DNA from: Rosa chinensis
Lineage: Eukaryota; Streptophyta; Magnoliopsida; Rosales; Rosaceae
Length of the DNA stretch: 64,000 nucleotides
Assembly (NCBI RefSeq): GCF_002994745.2
Contig: NC_037090.1
Span: forward strand, 7,375,501 to 7,439,500
Reading direction: 5' to 3'
Positions within the stretch are counted from its first letter, which is position 1; each line of letters begins with the position of its first letter. This document shows, in pieces, positions 10,739 to 53,753 of this stretch. The notes below the pieces were generated by a model, which was not told the DNA's origin, did no database searches, and saw only the letters and a list, made by a program, of their open reading frames with translations. Position numbers and translations under genes: made by a program.

Positions 10739-10808
10739 GGAGAGATCTCGCAGACAGGAGTCTTTGCGAGTGTCTTTTTAAGGTTTTATTACCAGAAGGC
10801 ACGTTTGG
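10414..10808 (-). promoter_or_regulatory. Presumed 5' region of PAE copy 3 with (TA)n and (GA)n tracts
   Basis: Upstream region of the third pectin acetylesterase gene. It carries a TA tract at about 10529-10554 and a GA tract at about 10700-10736. GA/CT tracts near starts are common in plant 5' leaders. No unambiguous TATA box can be told apart from the TA repeat, so promoter function is inferred from position only. Confidence 0.45.
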
Positions 10809-12416: not shown

Positions 12417-12670
12417 TAAGGGGGGTGTATTCAATTTGGATTTTAAATGATTCTATTTGACTTTTTATAATTCATGGATTCTCATGGACTTTGCAGAATC
12501 CACGGATTGTTTTAATTCCATATAGATTTGAACAAATTCTACTATATTTTATTGGTAAGATTTATTTGGATTTTAACAGATTCTACTATATTGTATTAGC
12601 AAGATTTTTTTTTTACTGGTTACAAATTCATATATAAGGATAACTTATATCTCAATTCCCAAACATAGTT

Positions 12671-14596
12671 TGACGCGCTAAAAGCAAGCGCATAATTTAA
12701 CCCTGAAAATTATCGTTAGTAGTATAAGCAAATAGGGATCGTTCTATTCCGGGGATTGAGGGTACACCTGTAATTGTGAAACAAATAAAGAAAAGTATTA
12801 TTTACAAAAATAAAATAAAGAATATAAATATATACAATTGTATAAACAAATAAAGAATTAAAATAATAAAGTATTATTTACAAAAATAAAATAAAGAATA
12901 GAAATATATACAAGTAACAAAATAAAAAGGGGGGGTTTAAGAATTATAGAATTGAAAATTAAGATAAATAAAATAAAGAAAATGTAAAAACATATATGCA
13001 AGGAACAAAGATCAAAATCAATTCCATATAATCAAATTCGATTCAAACCCTATAATTGTTCTTCCAAGTCATGAGAGAGGAGTTGATCATGTGAAACATT
13101 CGAAAGCAAATGATTTCCCATATTTTACTTTTCAATGCTAATTAACCTAAGCGAAAGCACCTAGATTAATCCTATCAAACATGCAATCAAGCCCTAGAAA
13201 GCTAGTCAATCATGACATGTTCAACGCATTAGACATAGAGAAAGGCTATCAACTCAAGTGTACAACTTAGTTATGGAAAAGTCCACCTAATTGCAATCCT
13301 CTTCAATTAAATTCGATTCTTGTCCAGAACCTTTACTACTTTTGATTCAAGTTACACAAAACGAAAAGTCGATTTCATGTTCTTAAACCTAGCACCAATT
13401 ACATGCAAATCCTATAAGTGTCGACCCAAATAAGATAAACATATAAAAGTTTTCTGTAAAGCAAATTTAATCGAACAAACTCACATAAGCAACTTAGAAT
13501 CACAATTATAGAATTCGAAAACTTTATTTAAACATAGAAATTGGGCTTAAACTTTGCCCTAAACATTATTGTTAACTAGAAACAAGTTCATACGAAATCA
13601 AACAAGGAAAACAAAAGATCATTACAAGGAAAAAGAATGAATTACACCGTGAGGGGAGATGGAGATGGAGAGCTAGATGGTTGGATCTTGAATCTTGGAA
13701 GCAAGCCTTCAAGGTGGATGATGGAGGATATGATCTTCACGGCTCATTCTTCTTCTTCCTCTCCTTGCTTGAAAATGCAGAACTTTGCAACTAGAGAATG
13801 GAGAAGGAAAATGGAAAGGAAATGGAGAGACAAAGAAGATGAAATGGATGAAGGAATTGGTGTTATGAAATGGTGAATTGGTCTCTATTTATAGGCTTCC
13901 AAGCAACACTATTTGGCTTTTAAACAAATCATAATGGGTTAGGTTTGAGCACTTAAACACTTGGTGGATTTGTTAGGTGAGAGCACTTAAACACTTAGTG
14001 GATTTGTTAGGTGAGATCACTTTCTCTTCCTTTATTCCTTTAATTTTTATCTCCACTAAGAACTCAGTTTTAGCCTTTGACTTCTTCATATGAAATGTTC
14101 CACTATGAGTGTAGATCATTGTGGTAAAATTTCAGAATGTATTGCCATGTGGTTGGGCCGGAAATGCTGCTGGACCTCTTACAGGTCCAGTTTTCCGGTT
14201 TTGCTTCTGTAGAAAATTGGGCTGATTGTTTGAAGGCCTTCCACTCATAGTTTGCTCTGGCACTCTTCATAAGAAATGTTCCTTTGGGTGTCTAGAATGG
14301 ATCTGGAAGGTTTCAGCTCATTTGAAGTTCATTTAGTCAGGCGGCCGCTCTTACTTCTTTGCTTGGCTTGGTTTCTCCTAGCCGGAGTAGGAATATGTGT
14401 AAAATTGATCTTTTAGTACATTTCCATTTTTCTCCATCATTTCCAGGTAATTATGGACCTAACGCTCATTTCACCTTCATCTACTCCAATGTACCTAAAA
14501 ATAGAAATTGAATTAAAAATCGATTCAGTTAAGGAATTAACTAAGCAAAATGTGAGGAATTAACTATTAAAATACTGCATTAAAATGCTCCTATCA
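12671..14596 (-). mobile_element. Solo LTR of the WUS-carrying retrotransposon family
   Basis: Starts TGACGCGCT and ends CTCCTATCA, flanked by a perfect 5-bp duplication TAGTT (12666-12670 and 14597-14601). The sequence is closely similar to the LTRs at 33059-35230 and 40239-42413, but shorter (1926 bp), mainly lacking the GA-rich stretch matching about 34240-34640. Orientation (minus) follows the full-length element. The clean duplication without an internal region indicates LTR-LTR recombination after insertion. A TATA-like site (TATAAATAG on the minus strand) lies near 13886-13895. Confidence 0.9.
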
Positions 14597-25180: not shown

Positions 25181-25339
25181 TCTGTTTGAACAGAGGAGGC
25201 TTCTTCAGTTGTAACCTTTGCTTCCATTTTCATTTTCAATAAGAGGTAAACTTGAAACCTTTTCTACGTTCTCTTCTGTTTGAACAGAGGAGGCTTCTTC
25301 AGTTGTAACCTTGCTTCCATTTTCATTTTCAATAAGAGA
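25181..25339 (-). repeat. Tandem duplication in the 3' end of the NPF gene
   Basis: A 65-bp stretch at 25275-25339 recurs at 25181-25246 (start-to-start offset 94 bp). The downstream copy has one extra T (CCTTTG against CCTTG), which changes the frame and ends the protein with GSKGYN rather than repeating KVTTEEASS. It changes only the cytosolic C-terminus. Confidence 0.85.
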
Positions 25340-27925
25340 AGCTTTATTAACTTCCTCCACTTGCACCTTGGTATCAGGCTCTTCTGTTTTGTACTTGTAC
25401 CATGAAGCCCAGTACAGATAATTTACAAAGTTAAGGCAGCTGAGGATGGCCAAGAAAAAGTAAAAGAGGTTCACATTGTTCTGGTTGATGTCTAGTCCAT
25501 GTAACCAACCCAATTTGCTTGGAGCAATTCTTGCTGTCACAGCATTTATGATATCCACAAAGATCGAACTCAAGAAGTATCCGAAAGAGAGTGACAGCCA
25601 TGTGAATGAAGTCGAAAGCGATTTCATGCCTGCCGGTGCTTCCCTGTAGAAAAACTCTAGCAGTCCAACTAGAGTGAACATGTCTGCAATTCCAAAGATG
25701 GCATACTGGAAGGAAAGCCAAAAGAGACTAATGCCGCCAGGCGCTAATGGGCTATGGGCCAACGCATAGTGCCTTCTTTTCACTTCAACCAAGCCAGCCA
25801 CCGTCATTGAAATTGCCGAGAGAACAAGTCCAATACCAACTCTTTGGAGCTGCGTGATTCCCGCGGGGTGTTTTGTGATTTTCCTTGCAAAGGGAACGAA
25901 GAGGTACTCGTAAAGAGGAATGAGTATGGACATGAAAATGAGGGGGATGACCGGGATTGATGGGGCGGGGACTTCAAAGTTTCCCAATTTACGGTTCATG
26001 GATCTGTTTCCTTGTTGGACTGAGAAAGTTTGGAGCTGTGCCAAGCAAGTGTTCATTATGATGGTGCTGAATAGAATGGGAAGCATTCTTGTTAGGACCT
26101 TGACTTCTTCCACTTGTGTTACAGTGCAAACCTTCCATGGCTCCGCCTTGGTGCCTTTTCCTAGTATGGCAGCTCTGTCTAGAAAGCTGCAGGTATAATA
26201 ATAGAAGCATTCTTCAGTACTTGCACTAAGCTACAATCTAGTAGTCTAACAAACTTGATCAAAAAACTTGACAAACTTCACATGTAGTCATTTCCATCCA
26301 ATTTTAGAAAGCAAAGTCTCCCCACTTTACAGAAACTTTGATGTAAACCTTTCTTAATTTTATGTGTATTTTTTGGATCCCCACCAAAATTTGGAGAATT
26401 TTTGCCTGCTGAGATGGGACATCGGGTGTGATAATTCTTGTTTGGTTATGTTTGACATGTTCATATGCAAATATAAACTTCCATAACTAAAACCCCACAT
26501 TGATTGTTTGTATAAATGGACCTCATCCCTGATCACTTTTATAATGGTCTGCACCAGTCACATGCATATGCCCGTGTTTATTGACCATGAAATCCATGAT
26601 TGGAGAATCTTGAGGATAATTTAGTATTAGTACCTGAATTGTTTTGTGTGTGAAATTTTCTCGTTAGTAAAAGCTGATTCTTTTTCACTGATCTCATATA
26701 GTTCTGCAGAGCTCCCTGGCAGTGATAAGCTTCTGTTTTTTATTGCCACTGCTATAACCTGTCAAAAGAAAGAAAGAAAAGTTTGAACTCTGCCAGACAT
26801 GCACTTCAAGCATGTCAATAAGTGTGAGCGTCACATGCATAAGAGCATTTGAGACGGTCACACATGCTAATTATAATTATTTTTGCTTTCGTAGAGAGAG
26901 TGTGAAGAAAGAGTTGGGAGACCTGAAAGATGCGGATGAGGGGACTGTCTCGGGGGACTTGGAGGCGGTAGAAAGGCTTTCCCAGTGCGAGAACAATAAA
27001 ACCAACAAGGGATCCCATGGTTGATATGAAGAAACCCCAATACCAACCCTTGTTCATGCTAACCCACACAACAACAGTGACTCCAATAGTTGCTCCAAGA
27101 GTAGAACTGAGCATGAACAAATTGAAAAAGGTTGCTAGTTTCTTTGCTTCATCCTTGTAACCAAACTGGTCACCACCAAGTGCCGGCAGAGCTCCCTTCA
27201 CACCACCTGAACCTAATGCCCACAAGTACAAGGATGCATAGAAATAGAATCCGATACCGCCTTCCATACAACTTGACTTGCCAACGCCACAAAATTTTGG
27301 CTGCAAGGGCTTTGCATAAGCTTGAATTGTCACCAGCGACAAACCCTGTTTACATACGTGTAACGGTGTCATAGTTAGAATCAAACGAAGAACAAGCCAT
27401 TAGTACAATTTGAAGGTGTTAGTTCTTTACCAGAACTTGAATTGAACCGAAAATCAAACATGTAGTGTATCTGCTCAGGTAAGTATCGGAAATGAAACCT
27501 CCGACGAGGGAGAGCAAAAAGGTTGTTCCCATGAAGTTTGTTAGAGTATTGGCAGCTGTAGCCAGATCGAAGTACATCGGTCCCAAGAAGTAGAGGACCA
27601 TGCTCACCATGTTTGCAACAAACCCCATGTTGTCCAATGCCAGCAACACTGCACAAACAAGAAGAACAAAATGCTATATATATATCTGAATCTAATAGAA
27701 CAAGTTGACAGAAATGGTTTTCGACTTTTCATGTGCTTGATTGCTTACCAAAAATGAAGATGGAGGCAGTATATCCACCCCTTTTCTTGTCCATCGGCTC
27801 AAGGGAGTTGTTGCTCTTTCCTTCCTCTTCTCCCTATGTGCACGAAACACATTAGTAATGGCCACACATGCAAAAAATCGACTTACACTGAGAAAGGGAT
27901 TGTGGGTGGCCTGATCGCTTACCAT
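25205..27925 (-). CDS. NPF (NRT1/PTR) family transporter, NPF4-like
   Basis: Plasma-membrane-type proton-coupled MFS transporter; the family moves nitrate, peptides or hormones such as abscisic acid. Exons (minus, 5' to 3'): 27923-27925 (only the ATG), 27749-27833, 27431-27648, 26923-27345, 26634-26758, 25205-26186; 1836 nt, 611 aa, in frame throughout. The protein begins MGEEEGKSNNSLEP. TM1 reads LLALDNMGFVANMVS, an NPF4-type sequence lacking the ExxER proton motif of many NPFs. Other family marks are GGFISDTYL, ALGSGGVKGALPALGGDQF and SFLDRAAI. About 12 membrane segments fit the length. The C-terminal tail carries a duplicated LIENENGSK segment. NPF4 placement is by eye; the substrate cannot be told from sequence. 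Confidence 0.9.
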
Positions 27926-33003: not shown

Positions 33004-33058
33004 CTGGCAAAAAGAGAGAAATTAAAAACTAAAAGTCCACAAATCCAGTTTTGTATCT

Positions 33059-35230
33059 TGACGCGCTCAAAAGCAAGCGCATAATTTAACCCTGAAATAT
33101 CGTTAGTAGTATAAGCAAATAGGGATCGTTCTATCCGGGGATTGAGGGTACACCTGTAATTGTATAACAAATAAAGAAAAGTATTATTTACAAAATAAAA
33201 TAAAGAATATAAATATATACAATTGTATAAACAAATAAAGAATTAAAATAATAAAGTATTATTTACAAAAATAAAATAAAGAATAAATATATACAAGTAA
33301 ACACAAATAAGGGGGGAATTAGGATTCTTAAAATTAAAATTAAAATAAATAAAATAAAGAAAATGTAAAAACATATATACAAGGGTGGAACGCAAGGAAC
33401 AAAGATCAAAATCAATTCCATGTAATCAAATTCGATTCAAACCCTATAATTGTTCTTCAAAGTCATGAGAGAGGAGTTGATCATGTGAAACATTCGAAAG
33501 CAAATGATTTACCATATTTTACTTTTCAATGCTAATTAACCTAAGCGAAAGCACCTAGATTAATCCTATCAAACATGCAATCAAGCCCTAGAAAGCTAGT
33601 CAATCATGTCATGTTCAACGCATTAGACATAGAGAAAGGCTATCAACTCAAGTGTACAACTTAGTTATGGAAAAGTCCACCTAATTGCAATCCTCTTCAA
33701 TTAAATTCGATTCTTGTCCAGAACCTTTACTACTTTTGATTCAAGTTACACAAAACGAAAAGTCGATTTCATGTTCTTAAACCTAGCACCAATTACATGC
33801 AAATCCTATAAGTGTCGACCCAAATAAGATAAACATATAAAAGTTTTCTGTAAAGCAAATTTAATCGAACAAACTCACATAAGCAACTTAGAATCACAAT
33901 TATAGAATTCGAAAACTTTATTTAAACATAGAAATTGGGCTTAAACTTTGCCCTAAACATTATTGTTAACTAGAAACAAGTTCATACGAAATCAAACAAG
34001 GAAACCAAAAATTCAAACAAGGAAAACAAAATATCATTACAAGGAAAAAGAATGAATTACACCGTGAGGGGAGATGGAGATGGAGAGCTAGATGGTTGGA
34101 TCTTGAATCTTGGAAGCAAGCCTTCAAGGTGGATGATGGAGGATATGATCTTCACGGCTCCTTCTTCTTCTTCCTCTCCTTGCTTGAAAACGCAGAACTT
34201 TGCAACTAGAGAATGGAACAAGAAAACTAGAGAATGAAAAAGAAATATGGAGAGGAAATGGAGAGACAAAGAAGATGAGATGGATGAAGGAATTGGTAGG
34301 AAATGGTGACTAAGGAAAATGGAGAGGAAATGGTGAGACAAGGAGATGAAATGGATGAAGGAATGTCTTTTAGAATGAGAGGAGAAGGTGTTTATATAGG
34401 GAAGAAAAAGAAGAGTGAAATGATGAGTGGAAGAAAAATAATGAAAGTGAAGTATGAAAGTGATTTGTAAAATATGGAAAAGAAAGAGAAATGATGAAAT
34501 GAAAGCAAAGCATGATGGTGCAGCAACATGGAAGTGATGATGATCTATTAAAGAGATTGTAGAAAAATATATCCAAGGAAAAAGAGAAAAGCATCTAGCT
34601 TTCTTCATGTGGGTGGGAAACATGAATATGTGGTGTTGAGCTGTTTTCAGGTCAGTTTCTTTCCCTTTATTCCTTCAATTATTTCTCCAACACAACTTCA
34701 TTATATGCCTTCGACTTCTTCATATGAAATGTTCCACTATGAGTGTAGATCATCCTGAAAAATTTTCAGAGCTTCAATCCATGTGGTTGGGCCGGAAATG
34801 CTGCTGGACCTCTTACAGGTCCAGTTTTCCGATTTTGCTTCTGTAGAAAATTGGGCTGATTGTTTGAAGGCCTTCCACTCATATTTTTCTCTGGCACTCT
34901 TCATAAGAAATGATCCTTTGGATGTCTAGAATGGATCTGGAAGGTTTCAGCTCATTTGAAGTTCATTTGGTCAGGCGGCCGCTCCTTCTTCTTTGCTTGG
35001 CTTGGTTTCTCCTAGCCGGAGTAGGAATATGTGTAAAATTGATCTTTTAGTACATTTCCATTTTTCTCCATCATTTCCAGGTAATTATGGACCTAACGCT
35101 CATTTCACCTTCATTTACTCCAATGTACCTAAAAATAGAAATTGAATTAAAAATCGATTCAGTTAAGGAATTAACTAAGCAAAATGTGAGGAATTAACTA
35201 TTAAAATATCACATTAAAATGCTCCTATCA
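33059..35230 (-). repeat. 3' LTR of the WUS-carrying retrotransposon
   Basis: 2172 bp, the downstream LTR in element orientation. A minus-strand TATA box (CCTATATAAA) lies at 34391-34400. GA-rich ORFs across 34057-34623 occur identically in the other LTR and are not genes. Confidence 0.93.
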
Positions 35231-37034
35231 AATTCCCCCACACTTAGCTTTTGCTAGTCCCTTAGCAAAACAAAACAAAAAAAAAAAAAAAATCCAAAAC
35301 AGAACAAAGACTTGACAAAAAGCAAGTAAATGACTCTATTGCTCCTAACTGTTGTCTCAGAGACTCCAAACTCATGGCTTTCACGTTAAACACTTAATCA
35401 AAATCACAAAGATAATTCCATGGTTAATAAACCTGTGACATTCATATGACTAAGCAAGATATGGAGAACTTAAGTTATACAGTGAATGATAGCATGTTTC
35501 GAACAAGTCCAATCCAAACTCACAGGGCATACTCTCGATTTTTCTCTCAGAAATGGCTATGCTTAAAAGCTTCACACTCAAATATATGCAAGAGAACAAA
35601 TTGTAAGGCAACAAACAGCTTGCATATTTCATCAATAAACACATTTTGTGAAGAATTTTTAAAGACCTCATGAAATGACTAAGTGCACAAATGGACCTAA
35701 ACCATAAGCTCGACTGCGTAACTGACTCCACTAACCAAAGACTGCCCATCTCAAGGATCAAGTCAGCACTTAAAACAGGTTGTAATGGGGCTAAGCTAGG
35801 GTTTTCGAAATGAAGATTAAGGATACAAAAAATCCTAAGGACCTAGCAGAGCATATAAGGACCACCTTATGTCATCATTTTTGTAGACCAAATATCATTG
35901 TTTTGGGCCAAACCTTCACTCTAACCAACATGGGAATGGACAAAGGCATAATTTTCAACTTTGAGCCTTCTACAAATTTGCAAGTCCAAAACCACACTTC
36001 AACATTTTCCCAAGAGTTTTCTTTTCAATTTTTCTTCTCTTTTGCCGCTTTTCTTTCTTTCTTTCTTTCTCTTTTTTTTTTTTTTTTTTCAAGGCAAAAT
36101 TTTTTTTCTTTTCTTCTTTTTTTTTCTTGGATTTTCCCCACCCCATACTTGTCTTTCATCGTCACCCCTACATACTATGTCATGCTCTACTAAGTCCTTA
36201 AGACAAGGGTAGAGATATCCTGTACTAAGCTCATGGTAGGGTAGTGAGGGTGATGAAATAAAGGTTTTCAACGTAGGCTCAAAGGGGTTCATTCTAAGGA
36301 GTCCCACGACGGGCACAATTGGGGACACATGCTTGTTTGGCTTTGGTGGTTACCTTAATGCCTTCTATCCTATCCAGGATCAGTGCATATTATGGCATAC
36401 AAGTTTTGACAGTCACAACAGTCGAGTTCTAGTATTCTCTAGTCCATTAAAATCTATGGCACATGATCATTGGATTTCCAAAGAATGATGAGGTTTTGCA
36501 AATACAGCCACGAAATTCTAGAATTATCAATAAGCACTCGAAAAGAAAGTATTTTAGCTCAATAGCTCACTTCAGGTCAAATGAATTAGACTTAATCCTA
36601 GCATGCTTAATGAACCAAGTTACAATCCTATCTCAAATTTTCATACAAGTATCACAATGTCGATTAACCACAGAATTCAATTAAGTCCTATTTTGATTGT
36701 GAAAACCTTCAGCCATGAATTCGGAGACATGTTCATCCTAGACGTTAGGAGCATCTTAAGACTCACACACACAAAATCACTCTAAAACGAACTTTTTTTT
36801 TTTTTTTTTTTTTTTTTACAATTTAATTAATTTCAACACTTAGGTACGGGAACAGGGAGTCTCGATGTGCAATGGGACTGAAACAGCTACCCTTTTTCAA
36901 GACTATGTTTAATCCAATATACCTTAGTGTATCACAACATCAACTAAAAACACAAAAAACACAATCCAACATCAACTATTTTTCATTTTTTTTTTTATAT
37001 ACTAACTACTAAAAACACAATAAAGCAATAACCC
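35231..37034. other. Retrotransposon interior without recognisable gene
   Basis: Begins with the polypurine tract on the minus strand, then AT-rich DNA with several homopolymer T/A runs (for example 36069-36089 and 36791-36817). No retroviral domain in any frame. The ORFs present lack recognisable motifs. Confidence 0.6.
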
Positions 37035-37287
37035 TTCCCCCATACTTAATTCATGCATTGTCCTCAATGTATAAACAAATATAAATCATGCAAAGCAGAA
37101 ATCAAGCATAGAAGAGAAAATGAACACAACGAAACCTAAAACAACTTAAAATTTAAGAAAATAAAATAGAAGGAAGAGTTCAAGAAAGCAAATCTGCGTT
37201 TGATGTCTCCTCCACAGCTACAGTTGAAATGGGTTGCCTCCCATGCAGCGCTTAATGTTTAAAGTCTTTCAGCCTAGACTTGTACCT
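37035..37287. repeat. Internal repeat block A flanking the cargo
   Basis: Shares an ordered set of landmarks with block B at 39230-39462: CCCCCATACTTAA, then GCATTGTCCTCAATGTA, AGCAAATCTG, and GGGTTGCCTCCCATGCAGCG at 37231-37250. Same orientation as block B. Confidence 0.75.
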
Positions 37288-37291
37288 CCAT

Positions 37292-37822
37292 TTACTCCTT
37301 TGGAGGAGCGGTATGCGGGCGAGTGGCAGCCCTCTTGCTGGTTTCAGCCTTCGGAGGCGGGTCCTCATGTTGTGATGCAGTAGCGTCCTTGCGAGGAAAC
37401 CCAGGAGGATAACTCTGCAAGTTATTGACTTCCTGAGCAAGCTTGTTTATTGCAGTGTGACAGCGGATCAAAGAGCAGTTCATCTCAGAGATGTAATCGA
37501 TCATGCAATTAACTCCCCAATCTGTCACCATAATACCATCGCGGAGAGAGGAACGCAAATCATCAATCGAATCCGACAAGCTTTCCAGGGTGGCCATAGG
37601 CCGAGGAGCACGAGTAGCTGGTGAGGAAGAAGACTCTCCGGGATGCAGTCTGGGAGAGCGACGAGGCAGAGGAGGGGGACTGCGGGTACGCTCACGGATA
37701 GGACGATGGTCCCATGGACGAGTAAGCCCAGCTCTAGTGGCTGCTTGACGACCTTCTTCTTCCAAAGAGAGAACACGGCGTTGATTGACGCCCCTGCGAG
37801 GGGTTACCTTGGTTCGAGCCAT
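37292..37822 (-). CDS. Unidentified 176-aa basic protein encoded in the retrotransposon
   Basis: Open frame from ATG at 37822 (MARTKVTPRRGVNQRR) to the stop at 37292. An in-frame ATG 13 codons upstream (37861) is possible, but the MARTK start is better placed. The N-terminal half is Arg/Pro/Ser-rich (RSPPPLPRRSPRLHP), the middle part looks helical (LESLSDSIDDLRSSLRD) and the C-terminus is Pro/Lys-rich. No zinc knuckle or protease motif is visible. It reads in the element's own sense and diverges from the WUS-type gene about 600 bp away. It could be a degenerate gag-like protein or captured sequence; I do not recognise it. Confidence 0.55.
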   Translation of the reverse strand: MARTKVTPRRGVNQRRVLSLEEEGRQAATRAGLTRPWDHRPIRERTRSPPPLPRRSPRLHPGESSSSPATRAPRPMATLESLSDSIDDLRSSLRDGIMVTDWGVNCMIDYISEMNCSLIRCHTAINKLAQEVNNLQSYPPGFPRKDATASQHEDPPPKAETSKRAATRPHTAPPKE

Positions 37823-38001
37823 GAGGAAGTAGAAGGAATTTGAAACTGCACGCTTAGACAAACCTTAGTAAAATCTGGAGGAGACAAAAAAGGATGTATA
37901 TGTAAAGCACAAAATAGGGTAGAAATCTCAACAGGCACAGGGTTTTAACAAAGCTTCTCCGGGAAGGAGAAGAGTTATAACAGTTCACGGCCCAAGAAAC
38001 T

Positions 38002-38314
38002 CCCCCACGTGTAAATATTCCTTTCTTTTCCTGGATTTATGGCATGCTTTCGGCTATAGCTTGTCTGTCACGGATCCTCGAGATTCGTTTGATTCCCCCA
38101 CGCGTCCTTTCTTTTCCTTAATTTACGGCAATCATACCTGCTTTCGGCTGTAGCTTATCTGTCACAGCTCCTCGAGATCAGTTTGGTTCCCCCACGTGTC
38201 CTTCACGAGCCAACAGCTTTTCCGTGTTTTCGGGTGACTTTAATCCAACGCGTAGATTTAATCTCAGAGATCGTCGATCCAACGGTGGAGATCTGCTCAC
38301 TCGTTCTATAAATA
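38002..38314 (+). promoter_or_regulatory. Presumed promoter of the WUS-type gene: G-box tandem repeat plus TATA box
   Basis: Two units of about 93-94 bp begin with CCCCCACGTGT (38002) and CCCCCACGCGT (38095); a third start CCCCCACGTGT is at 38189. CACGTG is the G-box core bound by bZIP/bHLH factors. Each unit also has a TTTCGGCTrTAGCTT segment and a CTCGAGAT segment. TATAAATA at 38307-38314 lies about 110 bp before the ATG, predicting a start of transcription near 38338. Confidence 0.7.
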
Positions 38315-38424
38315 GGTGCATTCTGAGCGACTGTTCACTCCAAAAGAAAATTCTTCCGAGTTCCAGTCTTTCTCTCTCAACCCTTCAGCCTTTCTTTCGA
38401 AACTCAAATCCTTTCTTCATCAAC

Positions 38425-39024
38425 ATGGAACCACGAACTCTGCAACTAATGGAGCAACAGACCCAGCAACAAATCGAGGATGGAGGAAACAACCAAGCAG
38501 CCGGGACTAATAACCGGTGGGCTCCCACACCGCCTCAACTAAGAATCCTCAAGGGCCTTTACTATGATAAGGGTTTTAAGTACCCAACTCCAGAGCAGAT
38601 TCAAGAGATCTGCCTTCATCTAAAACAGTATGGGCAGATCGAGGACAAAAACGTCTTCTTTTGGTTCCAGAACCTCAAGGCTCGTGAGAGGCAGAAGTTG
38701 AAGGAATTTCGGAACGTTCCGGTTGGTGGATCTCTCGATCTCAATTTTGGTTCCACTGGTTCTACTAGTAATGATAGATCCACTGACAGATCCATTGATC
38801 TAAACTTTGGGTCACGTGTCGGCTATGGTGCTGATGGATCGATCATGGAACAACGAGGAGAATATCACCAGGAGATTGAAACCCTTCCACTATTCCCCAT
38901 GCATGGTGAGGACATCTTGGGCAACATGAAGACTACTTCTGAGGGAGGTGGCAGTTATGGCGGTGGCTCTCACATTTCCCTTGAGCTCAGTCTCAACTCC
39001 TACAGAGATGCAGACATGGCTTAG
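38425..39024 (+). CDS. WUS: WUSCHEL-type homeobox protein (intronless, inside LTR retrotransposon)
   Basis: A 199-aa WOX protein of the WUS clade; such nuclear transcription factors set stem-cell identity in meristems. The start is ATG 38425 in good context (AACATGG), downstream of the TATA box at 38307; the frame is open back to 38224, but that lies upstream of the predicted transcript. Homeodomain at about residues 30-95, from [17 protein letters not shown] to [16 protein letters not shown]. The invariant Asn is kept; the next residue is Leu where WOX proteins normally have His. The WUS-box TLPLFPMH is at 153-160 and an EAR repressor motif LELSL at 186-190. Two extra DLNFGS repeats (about 105-110 and 125-130) are also present. 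Shorter than Arabidopsis WUS (about 290 aa) and without introns, unlike typical plant WUS genes. Intact frame with all key motifs suggests it could be functional. Confidence 0.92.
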
Positions 39025-39229
39025 TATTTTTATTATTATTATTATTATTATTATATTTTTTTTTAAAATATTTTTTTTTTTTTTTGTAAATAGCTGAATT
39101 TAATAAGACTGAATGAATGCAAATTTTTATTTTTTTATATTTTTTTTATTTTTTTATATAAAGGACTCAAAAATAAAAGACAAATATATAAATAGGACTC
39201 AAAATGAAAGACAAAAATATAAATCTCTT
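39025..39229. other. 3' flank of the WUS-type gene with TTA and T/A runs
   Basis: A short (TTA)n stretch starts right after the stop codon, followed by long T/A runs and AATAAGA-like sites that could act as poly(A) signals. Confidence 0.4.
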
Positions 39230-39462
39230 CCCCCACACTTAAATATTGCATTATCCTCAATGTAATCAATTAAAAGCATGCAATGTAATAAGTAAGCATA
39301 GATAGAAGACATTTACGAAAACAAATCCTAAAGTAAAAATAATAGAGAAAAATTGAAAAATAAAAAGAAATAGGGAAAGAGAAAGCAAATCTGATTATAT
39401 TCTGAATTGGGTTGCCTCCCAAGTAGCGCTTGTATTTTACGTCTTGCAGCCAGACGGTACCT
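39230..39462. repeat. Internal repeat block B flanking the cargo
   Basis: Second copy of the block described at 37035-37287: CCCCCACACTTAA, GCATTATCCTCAATGTA, AGCAAATCTG and GGGTTGCCTCCCAAGTAGCG (39409-39428), in the same order. Direct orientation; about 2.2 kb apart. Confidence 0.75.
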
Positions 39463-40215
39463 ACATTAAATAAAGTTAGTAACTATAATTAACAAAGAAA
39501 TACAAAATAAAAACAAGTATAACTATTAATTACAAACTACAAGTATATTGTACATAAGACACAAGTTAAGTACTCAAGTGAGTAAAAAAAACGTGAAAAG
39601 TATTTTTACAAGTTTAAAGTGTGAAACAACAAAATAATTTACACGTATAGAGTATTCACAAGTATTTCTTTTATTATAAACATTATTGATATCGAATCAA
39701 ATTCCAAGTGGTAAATCAAGTGGACGTGCGGCCCAAGTATAGTCGCCTAGACACAAACTCCCTTTCAAATCGTTTGGGCAACCTTACTGAAATGGCCAGG
39801 TGGGGGAGGACGAACACGAGAGGAAAAATCCATTTTGGCATGAGCTACTCCCACATAGTGGTTTAGGCCCATTTGCAAGCACTTCTGGATTCAAAAACCC
39901 GTCATGAACGTTGTCCCCTTCCTAGACACCATTCCACATAGGCTATACTTACTAAGATGAAAAAGTTCATAAGTGTGAAGACAGTTCAACAAGTGTTAAT
40001 AAAGGCTGCCCTCAACCTTAAGGGACCTGAGCTAGGTACCAATAAGGGGTTTAGGCCAATATTAACAAAAGAGACTTCACCTATTCCTCTCAATTTACAA
40101 CCTACAATTAAAATTCGTGTTCAATAATATAAATAATATTTAAACTAAGTTTTAAACAATTTATATACAACAAATATATACAATAAATGACACAATTTAG
40201 CAAGTGATTTTTCAA
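39463..40215. other. Retrotransposon leader region
   Basis: DNA just downstream (element sense) of the primer-binding site. No ORF of note; contains the element's untranslated leader. Confidence 0.5.
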
Positions 40216-40233
40216 TCCCCGGCAACGGCGCCA
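40216..40233 (-). other. Primer-binding site complementary to tRNA-Asp
   Basis: The minus strand reads TGGCGCCGTTGCCGGGGA, the complement of the 3' end of plant tRNA-Asp including CCA. It lies 5 bp inside the 5' LTR, where reverse transcription would start. Confidence 0.93.
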
Positions 40234-40238
40234 AAAAT

Positions 40239-42413
40239 TGACGCGCTCAAAAGCAAGCGCATAATTTAACCCTGAAATATCGTTAGTAGTATAAGCAAAT
40301 AGGGATCGTTCTATCCGGGGATTGAGGGTACACCTGTAATTGTATAACAAATAAAGAAAAGTATTATTTACAAAAATAAAATAAAGAATATAAATATATA
40401 CAATTGTATAAACAAATAAAGAATTAAAATAATAAAGTATTATTTACAAAAATAAAATAAAGAATAAATATATACAAGTAAACACAAATAAGGGGGGGAA
40501 TTAGGATTCTTAAAATTAAAATTAAAATAAATAAAATAAAGAAAATGTAAAAACATATATACAAGGGTGGAACGCAAGGAACAAAGATCAAAATCAATTC
40601 CATGTAATCAAATTCGATTCAAACCCTATAATTGTTCTTCAAAGTCATGAGAGAGGAGTTGATCATGTGAAACATTCGAAAGCAAATGATTTACCATATT
40701 TTACTTTTCAATGCTAATTAACCTAAGCGAAAGCACCTAGATTAATCCTATCAAACATGCAATCAAGCCCTAGAAAGCTAGTCAATCATGTCATGTTCAA
40801 CGCATTAGACATAGAGAAAGGCTATCAACTCAAGTGTACAACTTAGTTATGGAAAAGTCCACCTAATTGCAATCCTCTTCAATTAAATTCGATTCTTGTC
40901 CAGAACCTTTACTACTTTTGATTCAAGTTACACAAAACGAAAAGTCGATTTCATGTTCTTAAACCTAGCACCAATTACATGCAAATCCTATAAGTGTCGA
41001 CCCAAATAAGATAAACATATAAAAGTTTTCTGTAAAGCAAATTTAATCGAACAAACTCACATAAGCAACTTAGAATCACAATTATAGAATTCGAAAACTT
41101 TATTTAAACATAGAAATTGGGCTTAAACTTTGCCCTAAACATTATTGTTAACTAGAAACAAGTTCATACGAAATCAAACAAGGAAACCAAAAATTCAAAC
41201 AAGGAAAACAAAATATCATTACAAGGAAAAAGAATGAATTACACCGTGAGGGGAGATGGAGATGGAGAGCTAGATGGTTGGATCTTGAATCTTGGAAGCA
41301 AGCCTTCAAGGTGGATGATGGAGGATATGATCTTCACGGCTCCTTCTTCTTCTTCCTCTCCTTGCTTGAAAACGCAGAACTTTGCAACTAGAGAATGGAA
41401 CAAGAAAACTAGAGAATGAAAAAGAAATATGGAGAGGAAATGGAGAGACAAAGAAGATGAGATGGATGAAGGAATTGGTAGGAAATGGTGACTAAGGAAA
41501 ATGGAGAGGAAATGGTGAGACAAGGAGATGAAATGGATGAAGGAATGTCTTTTAGAATGAGAGGAGAAGGTGTTTATATAGGGAAGAAAAAGAAGAGTGA
41601 AATGATGAGTGGAAGAAAAATAATGAAAGTGAAGTATGAAAGTGATTTGTAAAATATGGAAAAGAAAGAGAAATGATGAAATGAAAGCAAAGCATGATGG
41701 TGCAGCAACATGGAAGTGATGATGATCTATTAAAGAGATTGTAGAAAAAATATATCCAAGGAAAAAGAGAAAAGCATCTAGCTTTCTTCATGTGGGTGGG
41801 AAACATGAATATGTGGTGTTGAGCTGTTTTCAGGTCAGTTTCTTTCCCTTTATTCCTTCAATTATTTCTCCAACACAACTTCATTATATGCCTTCGACTT
41901 CTTCATATGAAATGTTCCACTATGAGTGTAGATCATCCTGAAAAATTTTCAGAGCTTCAATCCATGTGGTTGGGCCGGAAATGCTGCTGGACCTCTTACA
42001 GGTCCAGTTTTCCGATTTTGCTTCTGTAGAAAATTGGGCTGATTGTTTGAAGGCCTTCCACTCATATTTTTCTCTGGCACTCTTCATAAGAAATGATCCT
42101 TTGGATGTCTAGAATGGATCTGGAAGGTTTCAGCTCATTTGAAGTTCATTTGGTCAGGCGGCCGCTCCTTCTTCTTTGCTTGGCTTGGTTTCTCCTAGCC
42201 GGAGTAGGAATATGTGTAAAATTGATCTTTTAGTACATTTCCATTTTTCTCCATCATTTCCAGGTAATTATGGACCTAACGCTCATTTCACCTTCATTTA
42301 CTCCAATGTACCTAAAAATAGAAATTGAATTAAAAATCGATTCAGTTAAGGAATTAACTAAGCAAAATGTGAGGAATTAACTATTAAAATATCACATTAA
42401 AATGCTCCTATCA
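40239..42413 (-). repeat. 5' LTR of the WUS-carrying retrotransposon
   Basis: 2175 bp, the upstream LTR in element orientation. TATA box on the minus strand at 41573-41582. Three single-base length differences from the other LTR explain the 3-bp size difference. Confidence 0.93.
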
Positions 42414-43412
42414 TATCTCCATGATACATCAATTATCATCGACAGTTTAGGAAAAAGAAAGATAGATGTAGATACCACATTCCAAGTGAAAGAGTTTGAA
42501 TATGAAAGATGATGGCTCAGATCCTATGAGCTGTTTGAGGATATTGATAACCCAACAAATTTCTTGATTGGATGTTCAAGAGGGACATAGAGCAGACCCA
42601 TTTGACCCATTTTATTAAAAATTCTGGATATAGCAAAATCACAGGGTAGCAGATATATGACCCAACAAGCATTCACTCGATTCAATTTTCCTCCCTGAAC
42701 GGAGAAGATTGAACACAACATTGAGCAGACAAACACGAAAACTTAGTGGTGCCATTGAGCAGACAAGTTCGAAGAAGAAGAAGAAAAACCCAGATTTTGA
42801 AAGAAATAATAAATCAAAATCGACCATAACCCAGATTTGTAATTGTCAGCAAATCCCAGACAATTTGCAACTTGCAATCCACACAAATACTCAACCAACA
42901 AAGACAAGCCATCACATTCCCAATCAGAAAACCAAGCAAGGCATTAAAAATTAACTATCATGAACAAACACAAGAAATGAAAGGTGAAATAGGAACTGAA
43001 ATGGAAAAGGGAGGAGTTATTACCTGCAGAGCTTTCGATTTTCAGAGCCTGGTACGAAAATCTGGGGATTGGATTGAGGCTTCGAACACGAATGAGAGGA
43101 GGCAGTCAGGAGGCTGGAGGCTTCACTTTTCAATATGGAAGATAAGGGTTTGATGGCAGTGTGGTGTAATTGTTGAAAGGAAGAGAGGGCACAACCCGGT
43201 ATTTCGAAATGTTCATTAAACTACAGTAACTCCCGCTACAGTGGAAAAGCCAGCGCTGGCTTTTAAAAGCATGGGGTTGCTGGCTTTGGCTTTTCGACTA
43301 AAAGAAGCAGCGGCTTCTGCCAAAAGCTGGGCAAAAGCAAGTTTACCAAACGCACACAGGTCAGTTGCTTATAAGCAGGGGAGCAAAAAAGCCCCCCCAA
43401 AACGCACCCTTA

Positions 43413-48943: not shown

Positions 48944-50345
48944 TTGAATTGGCTAATGGCCTATGAAAGACGAGTTGAGATTGTATTGTGATCGGTTGAA
49001 TTTCGCGCAAATTACCTTTGTGAGTTTGTGCACTCGTCTGTTTTCTTATGTTTGAATAGGATTGCGGGAGACTAGTTTGGTTTTTGGAGGATTATTGTAA
49101 AGTAGGTACTTTTGTACTCTGCTTAAATTTCAGTTTGATTAATGGGAAGTCAATGGCCCAGTCTATGTACTTCTTGTTTTGCATTTGGTGAAAAAGTTTC
49201 TCTAACCTTTCTATGCTTCATATGTTAATATATAAAGCTTGTTACATTTTGTGATATGAGAAAAAGAACGTATGAAAGAAAGAAGTAATAAATGGACCAT
49301 GGTGGACAAAAATATAAACAAAAAATCAGAGTTGTTGGCCCACTTTCTTTGGATAACTTTCCCCCGGAAATTATTCTATACACTGACGGTGCAAATGACC
49401 CAACACTTATAAGATGATCTCAACCCTTGATATTTATAATTAATATTTTTATTAATAATATAAAAGTGTATTTAATGCAATCTAACCATCCATTTATGTC
49501 GGTGCATTTAATCCTCCCTAAAATCCCCCCACTCTATATGATGAAGACATGGAGATTCGAGAATGAAAGATGGATATACGTGTAAATAAATATGGAACAC
49601 CAATTCATTATACCTGATGTAGTTCATGATGACAACATTGAGATTTCAATAGAATTTTCATCTATATTTTGTAGGATATAATAAATATAAATAAAATTGT
49701 GGTGAATCTTGAAATAGCCACCCACTCTACGTATAACCTTTATCCTTCTTATATCTCTAGATATACAGCGGCACAGTCGATTGAGAAGTTCAGTTCTCAG
49801 GTACGTTACGCTCTCTGTTTCGTCGATCGGCGGCCCCGTTTAGGGTTTTTCTATATTTTGCATGATTTGGAAATTATGTTTTGCTTTCCATTCGGCCTTC
49901 GGTAACTGCTTTATCTAGCAAACAAGAATTATCTATAATCGCTTCTAAAATTGCTCCACAAATATCTAATGCAGAATTGCAGATCTCCACTTTGCTACCC
50001 TCTAAACGCTAATGTGATGATTGATATGTTTTAGTTTTTCTGAGAACGTACGAGAATTTTGATTGAACATGCATGTGTTTTGTATGTTTATGTCAGATCT
50101 TCTGACATAATACCGTAATCCTAATATGCTGATGTTCATATATTTCGCTTGTTCCGTGTATCTTAAATTCTCAATCGTCTGACTCAAACAAACTCACGTT
50201 TTGCTAACTTGGTGCTGGGTTCGGATAACATACGAGAGCTTTTGTTAAACATGTGTATTGGATGGATTCTTGTGTTTGCAATTTGCAAGATTTCAGTTTC
50301 ACTCTTTCGTTTCTTGGCCATACTTTAATAATTATGTTGTTCAGG
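48944..50345 (+). other. FEN1 3' region and F-box gene 5' leader
   Basis: The FEN1 3' UTR occupies the first few hundred bases. From about 49700 a leader of the F-box gene is plausible: donor TCTCAG|GTACGT near 49800 and acceptor TTGTTCAG at 50344, just before the ATG. That makes a 5'-UTR intron of about 540 bp. No other gene seen. Confidence 0.5.
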
Positions 50346-51452
50346 ATGAGAAACAAACGCAGGGAGGATGTTGCCAGTTCCATCACTGAAGATCTCCACA
50401 TGGAAATCTTAGCAAGACTCCCGGTAAAATCTCTCATTCGGTTTCAGTGTGTATGCAAGCGGTGGAGGGGTTTGATTCGCAGCTCAAGTTTTGTTACAGC
50501 ACATATCAGACAACATTCCCATACCCATCTAATTACGGATGACCGCTCAAGTTTTGACCAGGTTGAGCTTTGTTACTCTCTTTTTCATTGTGAAAGATTT
50601 GAGCAGTCCCTGGAGTTAAAACCTCCCTTTCATCCCCAACTAGACTATAATTCCCGACTAGACTACTTCAAGATATATGGTTCAAAAAACGGTTTACTGT
50701 GTCTTGCTGGGAATGTAATGGATTCAAACAGCCCTATATACATATGGAACCCCTCTGTTAGGAAATTCAGGACTCTTCCACAACCAAGATTCGATCATTA
50801 TTGTGTGGACTGTTTTCCCAAGCATGTTGATATCCCTCTCTTATTTGGATTCCACCCAGAACTAAATGACTATAAGGTGATAAGGATGATGCTGCCTGGT
50901 TCCATCAAAATGGAGGTTTATACTCTTAGCACAAACTCTTGGAAGATTATTCAAGTCATTCCACCTTGGCTCAATACCATGAAGTTTTCTACTCGATCTG
51001 AATTTTGGAATGGAATGGCATATTGGCTTGCCACCAAAGATTCAATGGTTAGGGTTGTGTTGTTTGATACTAACAATGAAGAATTTGAAGAGCTAGCGGT
51101 CCCAATTACGATTTTGAGTGATGATTGGGATGCATATATCGAAGTGTACAAAGAATCGATTTGCCTACTTCATGTCAAAGTTGAACTGGATAACGACGTT
51201 GGCTGTGACTCTATCGACTTCTGGGTTCTGCAAGAACAGGATTTTAAGAAACTGCATACTGTTTATTTTCCTCAAGTATATCATGTCATTTGGGGCTTTA
51301 GTGTGGATAATGAGCTCTTACTAGAAGATTATTCATCTGATGGCGAATTGGCGTTTTATAATCTTGAATCCAAACAGGTTCAGAAAATTCGAATCAGTTC
51401 CTATTTAAGCGTACATACTTACATTGAAAGTTTAGTTTTATTTGATATGTAA
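50346..51452 (+). CDS. F-box protein with F-box-associated (FBA) domain
   Basis: Likely substrate receptor of an SCF ubiquitin ligase. The start at 50346 (MRNKRREDVASS) gives 368 aa; the frame is open upstream to 50253, but a splice acceptor one base before the ATG region argues that part is intron. F-box at about residues 14-55: ITEDLHMEILARLPVKSL, then VCKRWRGLI. FBA-type strands follow: IYIWNPSVRKFRTLP, FGFHPELNDYKVIRMM, VYTLSTNSWKII and WNGMAYWLA. Single coding exon. The target protein is unknown; this family is large and fast-evolving. Confidence 0.88.
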   Translation: MRNKRREDVASSITEDLHMEILARLPVKSLIRFQCVCKRWRGLIRSSSFVTAHIRQHSHTHLITDDRSSFDQVELCYSLFHCERFEQSLELKPPFHPQLDYNSRLDYFKIYGSKNGLLCLAGNVMDSNSPIYIWNPSVRKFRTLPQPRFDHYCVDCFPKHVDIPLLFGFHPELNDYKVIRMMLPGSIKMEVYTLSTNSWKIIQVIPPWLNTMKFSTRSEFWNGMAYWLATKDSMVRVVLFDTNNEEFEELAVPITILSDDWDAYIEVYKESICLLHVKVELDNDVGCDSIDFWVLQEQDFKKLHTVYFPQVYHVIWGFSVDNELLLEDYSSDGELAFYNLESKQVQKIRISSYLSVHTYIESLVLFDM

Positions 51453-51968
51453 TATAAATACTAGTTGATCATGGTAAAAACACTTCTTGGGTTGTTTTCT
51501 TCTTTTTTGTTTCTCCTAATCTGTGATCATGATAGTAGGGCTCTTAGTAAAGTTTTATATTCTGTTTTAGTTTTATCTGTAGTGACAGGAAAGCAAATGC
51601 GTGGGTTGGCTAATTAAGTTGTGATTGTGTTTTCGTTATGAAGGAGATGCACTCAATATGTATAGTTGTGAAAGGTGATATATATGTATGCAAATCCAAC
51701 TCCAGCTAGTTATTGTCGATCCCTTCATTGCGTACTGCCTAATTGAACAACACATATATATCAATTCAATTTGAAAACCTTAGGAGACACTGAGTGAACT
51801 TCGAAACACACATACAATCCGTCAGTAAATGTGAAATCACTCGAATACTATTTTGCAATCAAAAGATGAGTTTGATGACGCTGTGGAAAGCTTGTAGAGA
51901 TCTAGATAGAAACAGTTTAAACACCCTCACCCAAAATTGAGTCAATTCAATCGAGAAACATACATGCC
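51453..51968. other. Intergenic between F-box and PPR genes
   Basis: Contains the 3' flank of the F-box gene and the presumed promoter of the PPR gene. No additional feature recognised. Confidence 0.5.
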
Positions 51969-53753
51969 ATGTCGACAATCCATACCTTCCAAGCTTCGAA
52001 AACCAAAGCCATCCTAACCCTCTTGCAAGGATGCAACACCCTCAAAAGGCTCAGAAAAATCCACGCCCACGTCATCACCAACGGTCTTCAACACCACCCT
52101 TCCATTTGCAGCAAGCTCCTCAACTTCTGCGCCGTCTCCGTCTCAGGCAGCTTACCCTACGCTCAGCTGCTCTTCCATTATCACATCCCAAACCCACAAA
52201 CCCAAGACTGGAATTCCATGATCAGAGGCTTCTCCCAAAGCCCATCTCCTCTTCAAGCCATTTCTTACTACAACCACATGCTTTCGTCCTCCTCCGCTTC
52301 CGATTCCCCACCCGACACGTTTAGCTTCTCGTTTGTGCTCAAGGCTTGCGAGAGAGTCAGGGCAGAGAGCAAGTGCCGAGAGGTTCATGGAGTTGTGGTT
52401 CGCCATGGTTATGATATGGACGTTGTTGTTTGCACCAATTTGATGAAGTCTTATGCTGGCAATGGGTCAGTCGACAATGCACGGAGAGTGTTCGACGAAA
52501 TGTCTGAGAGAGACTTGGTGTGTTGGAATTCCATGATCTCGTGCTACTCTCAAGCGGGTCTTCACCATGAGGCGTTGAATATATTTAGTCTTATGAGAAA
52601 TCAAAATGTGGGTCTTGATGGGTTCACTCTTGTTGGGTTGCTTTCGTCTTGTGCTCACTTGGGTGCGTTGAACACCGGAGTCACAATGCATGAACTTGCT
52701 CGTCAGAAGGGGTTTTTGGGAAGTGTTTATGTTGGCAATGCGCTTATAGATATGTACGCAAAATGTGGTGACTTGGATGGTGCTCTTTGTGTCTTTGAGA
52801 GAATGAGAAAGCGGGATGCTTTTACGTGGAACTCCATGATTGTTGGGTATGGAGTACATGGTCGAGGGGACGAAGCAATCTATTTTTTTGAGAAGATGAT
52901 GATGGCAGGTGTGCAGCCGAATTCCATCACATTTCTCGGTTTGTTATGTGGGTGTAGTCACCAAGGATTAGTAGAGAAGGGTGTTGATTACTTCCATATG
53001 ATGAGCTCCAAGTTCAATATCAAACCTGGAATTAAGCACTATGGGTGTCTGGTGGATCTGTTTGGTCGAGCTGGGAAGCTCGAGAAGGCGCTTCATGTTA
53101 TTAGGGCATCACATGCACAGGATGATCCAGTTCTATGGCGGACTCTGCTCAGCTCTTGCAAGATTCATAAAAACGTGGAAATAGGAGAAGTTGCCTTGAA
53201 GAATCTAATCCGTTTAGGGTCATCAAATGCAGGGGACTACGTACTTCTTGCCACTATTTATTTTAGGGCGAAAGATGCAGATGGTGTTTCAAGGATGAGA
53301 AAATTGATTAAAAACCAGGGAGTGAGGACCGCTCCTGGTTGGAGCTGGATTGAAGTTGGCGATCAGGTTCACAAATTTGTAGTGGATGACAAGTCACATC
53401 CAGATACTGAAGAAATCTATCGAAAATTGGAGGTAGTAGTCCAACGAGCTGCTCTACATGGTTATCTGCAAGAGGAATCTCTTATCAGAGCCTGTGAATT
53501 TACCTCCATAGACACCAACTGTTCGGGAACTTCAGGTTCATGTCACAGTGAGAAGCTGGCAATTACTTTTGGCTTGGCAAGAACTCCAGAAGGAACATGT
53601 TTACGGATAGTAAAAAACCTGAGAGTTTGTAGAGATTGCCATTCATTTACAAAATTTGTTTCCCAAGCATTTAATCGAGAAATAATTGTTAGGGACCGAG
53701 TTCGGTTTCATCACTTCAAGGGTGGATTGTGTAGTTGTAAAGACTATTGGTGA
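51969..53753 (+). CDS. PLS-class pentatricopeptide repeat protein, DYW subclass
   Basis: 594 aa, intronless. Organelle RNA-editing factors have this layout: PPR repeats (for example NALIDMYAKCGDLDGALCVF and WNSMIVGYGVHGRGDEAI), an E/E+ region (PGWSWIEVGDQVHKF) and a complete C-terminal DYW deaminase-like domain. Zinc and catalytic residues are visible in CHSEKLA and CRDCH, and the protein ends in CKDYW. The start ATG at 51969 is the first in frame. The sequence closely resembles Arabidopsis At3g56550 as I recall it (KLRKIHSHVI, GLQHHPSI), so it is probably the ortholog. The N-terminus is not an obvious transit peptide, so mitochondrial or plastid location is open. Confidence 0.94.
   Translation: MSTIHTFQASKTKAILTLLQGCNTLKRLRKIHAHVITNGLQHHPSICSKLLNFCAVSVSGSLPYAQLLFHYHIPNPQTQDWNSMIRGFSQSPSPLQAISYYNHMLSSSSASDSPPDTFSFSFVLKACERVRAESKCREVHGVVVRHGYDMDVVVCTNLMKSYAGNGSVDNARRVFDEMSERDLVCWNSMISCYSQAGLHHEALNIFSLMRNQNVGLDGFTLVGLLSSCAHLGALNTGVTMHELARQKGFLGSVYVGNALIDMYAKCGDLDGALCVFERMRKRDAFTWNSMIVGYGVHGRGDEAIYFFEKMMMAGVQPNSITFLGLLCGCSHQGLVEKGVDYFHMMSSKFNIKPGIKHYGCLVDLFGRAGKLEKALHVIRASHAQDDPVLWRTLLSSCKIHKNVEIGEVALKNLIRLGSSNAGDYVLLATIYFRAKDADGVSRMRKLIKNQGVRTAPGWSWIEVGDQVHKFVVDDKSHPDTEEIYRKLEVVVQRAALHGYLQEESLIRACEFTSIDTNCSGTSGSCHSEKLAITFGLARTPEGTCLRIVKNLRVCRDCHSFTKFVSQAFNREIIVRDRVRFHHFKGGLCSCKDYW

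Follow-up and report, generated by a model that had tools for sequence, protein, structure and literature searches.

Several plant Ty3/Gypsy long terminal repeat (LTR) retrotransposons, among them maize Grande with gene23, rice RIRE2 and Silene Retand, carry an antisense frame termed aORF-3R, and most antisense genes of plant LTR elements are described as being of unknown origin (PMC7264820). Retand carries antisense TRP28, which encodes a predicted DNA-binding protein (PMC11963269), and LTR elements can also transduce host mRNA sequences, as maize Bs1 does (PMC7264820). Here, we analyzed an LTR retrotransposon at positions 33059-42413 of a 64,000-nucleotide stretch of Rosa chinensis (C3:7375501-7439500, hereafter the window), which carries a gene of the WUSCHEL (WUS) type, WUSCHEL being known for the maintenance of plant stem cells. 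With a probability of about 0.72, we regard it as an LTR retrotransposon that lacks gag-pol, most likely arose by deletion from an Athila-type Ty3/Gypsy element, and contains an antisense, intact, intronless WUSCHEL with predicted expression from the element's own antisense promoter, the homeodomain of the WUSCHEL protein likely being kept as an aid to the spread of the element. No report of WUS within an LTR element was found in the open-access literature, most subscription-journal papers being outside this coverage.

Structure of the element

The two LTRs match at 2173 of 2176 aligned positions and differ by three single-base gaps, with no substitution. Both have TG...CA termini, and the element is flanked by the target duplication TATCT on both sides, which confirms the young LTR retrotransposon proposed in the initial annotation. 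Assuming 1.3e-8 substitutions per site and year, zero substitutions in about 2170 sites correspond to an age of at most tens of thousands of years. As the primer site adjoins the right LTR, the sense strand of the element is the minus strand, and the WUS frame on the plus strand is therefore antisense. The features are as follows:

33054..33058, no strand: left target-site duplication TATCT (sequence)
33059..35230, minus: 3' LTR, 2172 bp (LTR alignment)
35231..35241, minus: purine-rich tract adjoining the 3' LTR, a candidate polypurine tract by its sequence
35237..37291, minus: 3' internal region (92-96% identity in L110-L112)
37292..37822, minus: sense open reading frame (ORF), 176 aa (without a Pfam family; omega 0.52; intact in 30 of the 33 loci compared)
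38168..38350, plus: antisense promoter-like block (68% identity over 198 aligned positions to the Tat-like WUS element L109)
38307..38316, plus: TATA box TATAAATAGG (without mismatch in two of the three relatives lacking WUS)
38425..39024, plus: WUSCHEL-type ORF, 199 aa, intronless (antisense to the element)
38512..38703, plus: homeodomain (omega 0.18 among young copies)
38881..38904, plus: WUS-box TLPLFPMH (sequence)
38980..38994, plus: EAR-like motif LELSL (sequence)
39025..40216, minus: internal region from the cargo to the primer site (sequence comparison)
40217..40233, minus: primer-binding site TGGCGCCGTTGCCGGGG, 17 nt (identical in L111, L112 and L113)
40239..42413, minus: 5' LTR, 2175 bp (LTR alignment)
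42414..42418, no strand: right target-site duplication TATCT (sequence)

The antisense 199-aa ORF was correctly assigned to the WUS type in the initial annotation. It matches the Pfam Homeodomain with 42.2 bits (cut-off 22.9), its top match in the PDB is the WUSCHEL homeodomain 6ry3 (5.1e-22), and both the WUS-box and LELSL are present. The reported lack of gag-pol also held, as the gag and pol proteins of the relatives L113, L110 and L109 (see below) found no match in the window element at E <= 1, with WUS detected as a control. The LTR pair with TG...CA ends, the target duplication, the primer site and the lack of gag-pol next to the existence of a gag-pol relative are the features of a non-autonomous LTR retrotransposon. 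The 176-aa sense ORF, which had escaped the initial annotation, is common to the family; it has six database relatives, and both of those with a named organism are from Rosa chinensis.

Relatives with gag and pol

At C4:43.49-43.50 Mb (L113/L110), a relative was found with the order 5' LTR, primer site, gag, reverse transcriptase (RT)-RNase H-integrase, antisense WUS, sense ORF, 3' internal region, and 3' LTR. Its 17-nt primer site is identical to that of the window, its LTRs are 99.35% alike, and its gag frame matches PF03732, with a protease match below its own cut-off. The WUS frame of this relative (259 aa) is intact, antisense, and lies about 300 bp past pol, and identity to the window amounts to 93% of nucleotides in the sense ORF and 92% in the 3' internal region. 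The pol of L110 has no RVT_3. The primer site TGGCGCCGTTGCCGGGG is of a tRNA-Asp type that we take to be typical of Athila, and from this site together with the RT motifs, which were judged by eye, we assume that L113/L110 belongs to the Athila lineage. By this comparison, the window element would most likely be a gag-pol-less deletion derivative of an Athila-like Ty3/Gypsy element that carried the cassette.

A second type of relative is represented by L109 (C5:87.69 Mb), the pol of which lies on the minus strand and contains RT_RNaseH, RVT_3 and integrase, with WUS following in antisense after pol. Only 26-36% identity was found between the pol proteins of L109 and L110. RVT_3 is a second RNase H of the archaeal type that presumably marks the Tat clade, and L109 resembles Retand in having this second RNase H-like domain, the link to Tat again being our assumption. 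In a search for TRP28 in L109, none of the five frames outside cargo and pol (four on the plus strand, one on the minus strand) gave a Pfam match.

Copies of the cargo in the rose genome

The 515-Mb assembly was searched with the cargo protein, 150 of 696 candidates were scored, and copies covering at least 189 of the 199 residues were counted as full-length. There are at least 143 such copies with 91-100% identity, five of which contain an internal stop; thus, the cargo has indeed spread through the genome, as had been proposed. Of the top 30 loci, 27 show the primer-site region and an LTR edge at the expected place and orientation, and three do not (L015, L016, L022). Two further elements are complete: L111 has an LTR pair with 99.76% identity and the target duplication CTTGC, and L112 has an LTR pair with 99.71% identity and the target duplication ACGGT. 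With these two complete elements and 143 full-length copies, the LTR-flanked WUS cargo is neither a chance arrangement nor a mis-assembly.

Among 70 young loci, the WUS-box is present in 70, the EAR motif in 69, and WFQN in 68. In 38 copies sampled down the ranking, mean divergence was 3.5% in the frame, 4.8% in the 300 bp upstream, and 10% in the downstream region, which is of low complexity.

The LTRs of L111 and L112 are mostly 78-85% identical to those of the window element over long stretches, compared with 91-98% in the main interior pieces and lower values in short parts. LTR subfamilies thus carry one common cargo region, with separate histories of LTR and cargo that resemble inter-subfamily recombination.

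The distribution of the young copies is uneven. Of 141 full-length young copies placed on chromosomes, 139 lie in four blocks (C1 57-64, C2 33.8-88.4, C3 0.4-16.3, and C7 2.3-21.1 Mb), which were drawn from the same copies as were counted. None lies on C5 (chance about 1e-12), and older copies occur on all seven chromosomes. This clustering could stem from a mosaic of parental haplotypes in the hybrid cultivar 'Old Blush' or from biased insertion.

These loci have very likely been described before under a different view. In a survey of rose WOX genes, 381 RcWOX genes were listed, 226 of them on chromosome 2 and 364 in Rosa-only clades, the numbers for R. multiflora and R. rugosa being 170 and 105; its main text, in which the string 'transpos' does not occur, treats the loci as genes (PMC11405225). 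The motifs printed there for clade V of the RcWOX clades I-V (PMC11405225) agree with the window protein, and chromosome 2 leads in that count as it does in ours. It is very likely that clades I-V are the same loci as our retro-WUS copies, and very likely, too, that WUS-carrying elements account for the published 381 rose 'WOX genes'. In the R. rugosa genome paper, a WUS orthogroup row reads 46/14/32. A host WUS family enlarged through duplication of the genome or of segments, next to which retrotransposons lie by chance, would agree with the whole-genome duplication offered as a hypothesis in PMC11405225. However, the copies are intronless and sit at a fixed position within elements that have LTRs and target duplications, and collinear genes within the rose genome were not found according to the same source, so that we consider duplication of a host gene family to be practically negligible as an explanation.

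Origin of the cargo

The native WUS gene (L046, C2:11.71 Mb) encodes 299 aa, has two GT-AG introns, and is the sole intron-bearing WUS gene found in the genome. Both introns are absent in all nine older intronless loci (L039-L045, L047, and L048). The seven loci L039-L045 share a 3' breakpoint located seven codons ahead of the native stop, after which the frames enter element sequence, and the tail behind the breakpoint (SGAADSA in L109) is recognizable in L056, L059-L061, and L067. This common breakpoint and tail across loci make a single capture of WUS likely. Descent was argued through native WUS, the protein tree (37 rows) containing no other WOX clades; together, the intron-bearing native gene and this tree uphold the WUS origin given in the initial annotation. 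Judged from these comparisons, the cargo is a WUS descendant and a processed retrocopy devoid of the parental introns.

Three WUS-less relatives (L114-L116) have the same backbone without a WUS match. Their alignment with L109 runs to where WUS starts and resumes at the WUS end, with overlaps of about 2 nt (by eye) at both junctions. In these relatives, other element sequence fills the WUS gap, and therefore part of the gap must have been replaced or reshuffled. As TATAAATAGG is found exactly in two of the three, the promoter-like block evidently occurs in elements free of the cargo. L109 and the window share 68% identity in this block, and a stretch of 19 bp starting at the TATA box is the same in both. 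A Tat-like pol lies beside WUS in three of the nine older intronless loci, namely L040 (the place of L109), L043, and L048, and the pol proteins of L043 and L048 are 85-91% identical to that of L109.

In the 5' region of native WUS, an insert of 338 bp (about 927-1264 of the L046 reverse complement) is absent from L039 and L040. An intron in the 5' untranslated region was considered and rejected, as the insert is flanked by 16-bp direct repeats, contains a T run, and has no GT-AG register. More likely, it represents an insertion resembling a short interspersed element (SINE) that entered native WUS after the capture.

With regard to the time of capture, native WUS of Rosa is a closer match for each of the nine older intronless loci than the protein of Argentina or Fragaria. 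In the protein tree, which was midpoint-rooted, a split with 99/95 support sets native WUS proteins apart from the retro-WUS and WUS-like proteins of Rosa. The native WUS of Rosa sits where the two sides meet, and WUS-like proteins from R. rugosa are interspersed among the retro-WUS of R. chinensis. Should these R. rugosa proteins be cargo as well, the capture would have occurred after the split between Rosa and Fragaria/Argentina and before that between R. rugosa and R. chinensis. The recent movement claimed in the initial annotation thus stands for the element, which is young, but not for the cargo, which is old if the interleaving proteins are indeed retro-WUS. Distances from native WUS, in changes per codon, are 0.5 for L063, 0.9 for L052, 1.5 for L061, and 2.0 for L009, as if errors had been added with each round of transposition.

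Selection on the WUS frame

For codon analyses, 12 of 100 loci were dropped (L039-L046, L050, L057, L102, and L107), on account of broken or partial frames except for the native locus L046, the spliced frame of which was used instead. The young set contained 68 intact frames, which gave 59 distinct frames after merging identical rows, a sub-sample of 36 distinct frames was hand-picked at steps down the ranking, and a deep tree was built from native WUS, 20 older, and 12 young frames (178 codons). All of these sets favor intact frames.

In the young set, omega (dN/dS) of the homeodomain was 0.176 (2dlnL, twice the log-likelihood difference, 18.0 versus omega = 1), compared with 0.81 in the rest of the gene (2dlnL 1.65) and a weak whole-gene signal of 0.68 (2dlnL 6.8). 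Separated by branches, the homeodomain gave about 0 on internal (2dlnL 11.7) and 0.24 on terminal branches, and the rest gave 0.97 and 0.75, respectively. The sub-sample yielded 0.175 for the homeodomain (2dlnL 13.6) and 0.925 for the rest. As judged from these codon models, the homeodomain of the young copies is under strong purifying selection, whereas the remainder drifts; a strong signal emerged only once the homeodomain was treated separately. The open frame had initially been taken as a sign that the cargo is not yet decayed; the frame is open, but there is more to it than a lack of decay, as selection among young copies acts on the homeodomain. In the deep tree, omega was 0.57 (2dlnL 42.8) with 0.62 on internal branches (2dlnL 14.7), and 0.45 in the homeodomain with 0.55 on its internal branches (2dlnL 6.0). 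On a neutral path to the window copy, about 19 nonsense changes would be expected, an estimate that depends on branch lengths from a hard alignment. The WF-N recognition motif was found in 92 frames from the 100 loci, native WUS included; every one of these frames retains the Asn, and the preceding residue varies.

In one older group (L047, L048, L053, and L063-L066), WFVN replaces WFQN in the recognition helix, and the frames are open. The DNA preference of this group may have changed.

Several observations weigh against the view that the element makes use of the WUS protein, and some of them would suit a passive cargo, which hitchhikes, does nothing for the element, and has intact frames because the burst is young. 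The sequence beyond the homeodomain is close to neutral in the young copies, and the whole-gene omega of the sub-sample (0.78, 2dlnL 2.4) is not significantly below 1. The search by protein similarity favors intact frames and lowers omega, the contrast between homeodomain and rest being less exposed to this effect. Neither the LTR nor the upstream region contained an excess of WUS-type sites over 500 dinucleotide shuffles. During rooting, 359 of 364 Rosa-specific WOX members were almost unexpressed (PMC11405225); the rooting samples do not sample the shoot meristem. A passive cargo is nevertheless unlikely in view of the homeodomain omega with its internal branches near zero, the deep internal omega that is below 1, the nonsense changes expected on the way to the window copy, and the TATA stretch that is unchanged between the Tat-like and Athila-like forms.

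The assumed element history has weak points of its own. Six of the nine older intronless loci have no pol match inside their 1.5-kb flanks, no LTRs of L109 were found in the 10 kb read, the pol of L110 has one in-frame stop, and the labels 'Athila' and 'Tat' are provisional, being based on features such as the primer site, RT motifs and RVT_3.

A role at the RNA level was considered as well, in which sense and antisense WUS transcripts would pair into double-stranded RNA and thereby modulate how strongly the element or native WUS is silenced. WUS is indeed antisense to the direction of LTR-driven transcription, and such a possibility has been raised for antisense ORFs (PMC7264820). As the observed constraint concerns amino-acid replacement in the homeodomain, and the window frame shares no more than 73-79% identity with native WUS over the matching blocks, which is poor for targeting this gene, we regard an RNA role as very unlikely. 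That selection acts on the homeodomain points to DNA binding as the property used.

Proposed history and role

In our preferred explanation, template switching onto spliced WUS mRNA would have led to the capture, and the sequence of this mRNA apparently came to lie directly behind an antisense promoter that was already resident in a Tat-like Ty3/Gypsy element. A second RNA-level recombination may then have moved the cassette from the Tat-like to an Athila-like element, and the window element would have been mobilized in trans. The resident promoter and the captured mRNA together would give a transcript with a native-derived WUS frame and hence a predicted nuclear DNA-binding protein. By analogy with the proteins Grande GENE23 and Retand TRP28 (PMC7264820; PMC11963269), we take this protein to be a likely nuclear accessory factor of the element, a use that has been suggested for other antisense genes of plant LTR elements. 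A more far-reaching version, which we put forward tentatively and consider doubtful, is that the retrotransposon family co-opted WUSCHEL as a selfish accessory gene, the protein from the resident antisense promoter steering meristem cells, the future germline, toward transmission of the element.

For this family, a single genome reveals the gene that served as donor, the two junctions, relatives lacking WUS, the resident promoter-like block, and the selection that followed, and the use of a stem-cell factor by a retroelement becomes testable. Rose gene-family and expression studies may count cargo of mobile elements.

Other features of the window

A solo LTR of the same family with 92-93% identity is present at 12670-14594 and is flanked by the 5-bp direct repeat TAGTT. 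Positions 10807-12420 contain tandem units of about 0.56 kb that are about 93-95% identical. Ordinary plant genes lie at 50229-53750 and 25208-27399, comprising an F-box frame, a PPR-DYW frame, and pieces of a PTR2/POT transporter.

Comparison with known systems

The rose cargo shares with aORF-3R of Grande, RIRE2, and Retand the antisense frame between pol and 3' LTR, the family-wide presence, and a promoter-like sequence of its own (PMC7264820). This position is found in L110; in L109, the frame is antisense after pol, with no 3' LTR found. In contrast to aORF-3R, for which no similar host gene is described and the origin is given as unknown (PMC7264820), the frame in rose is a traceable copy of host WUS. 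As in Retand with antisense TRP28, the antisense frame encodes a predicted DNA-binding protein, but Retand carries TRP28 (PMC11963269), whereas the protein here has a homeodomain, the window copy is without gag-pol, and the pol of its relative L110 is without RVT_3. With gene transduction, for example by maize Bs1, our system shares the host mRNA sequence within an LTR element (PMC7264820). Transduced genes are, according to the same source, usually in sense orientation and present in one or few copies (PMC7264820), whereas the WUS cargo is antisense and occurs with an open frame in at least 143 full-length copies.

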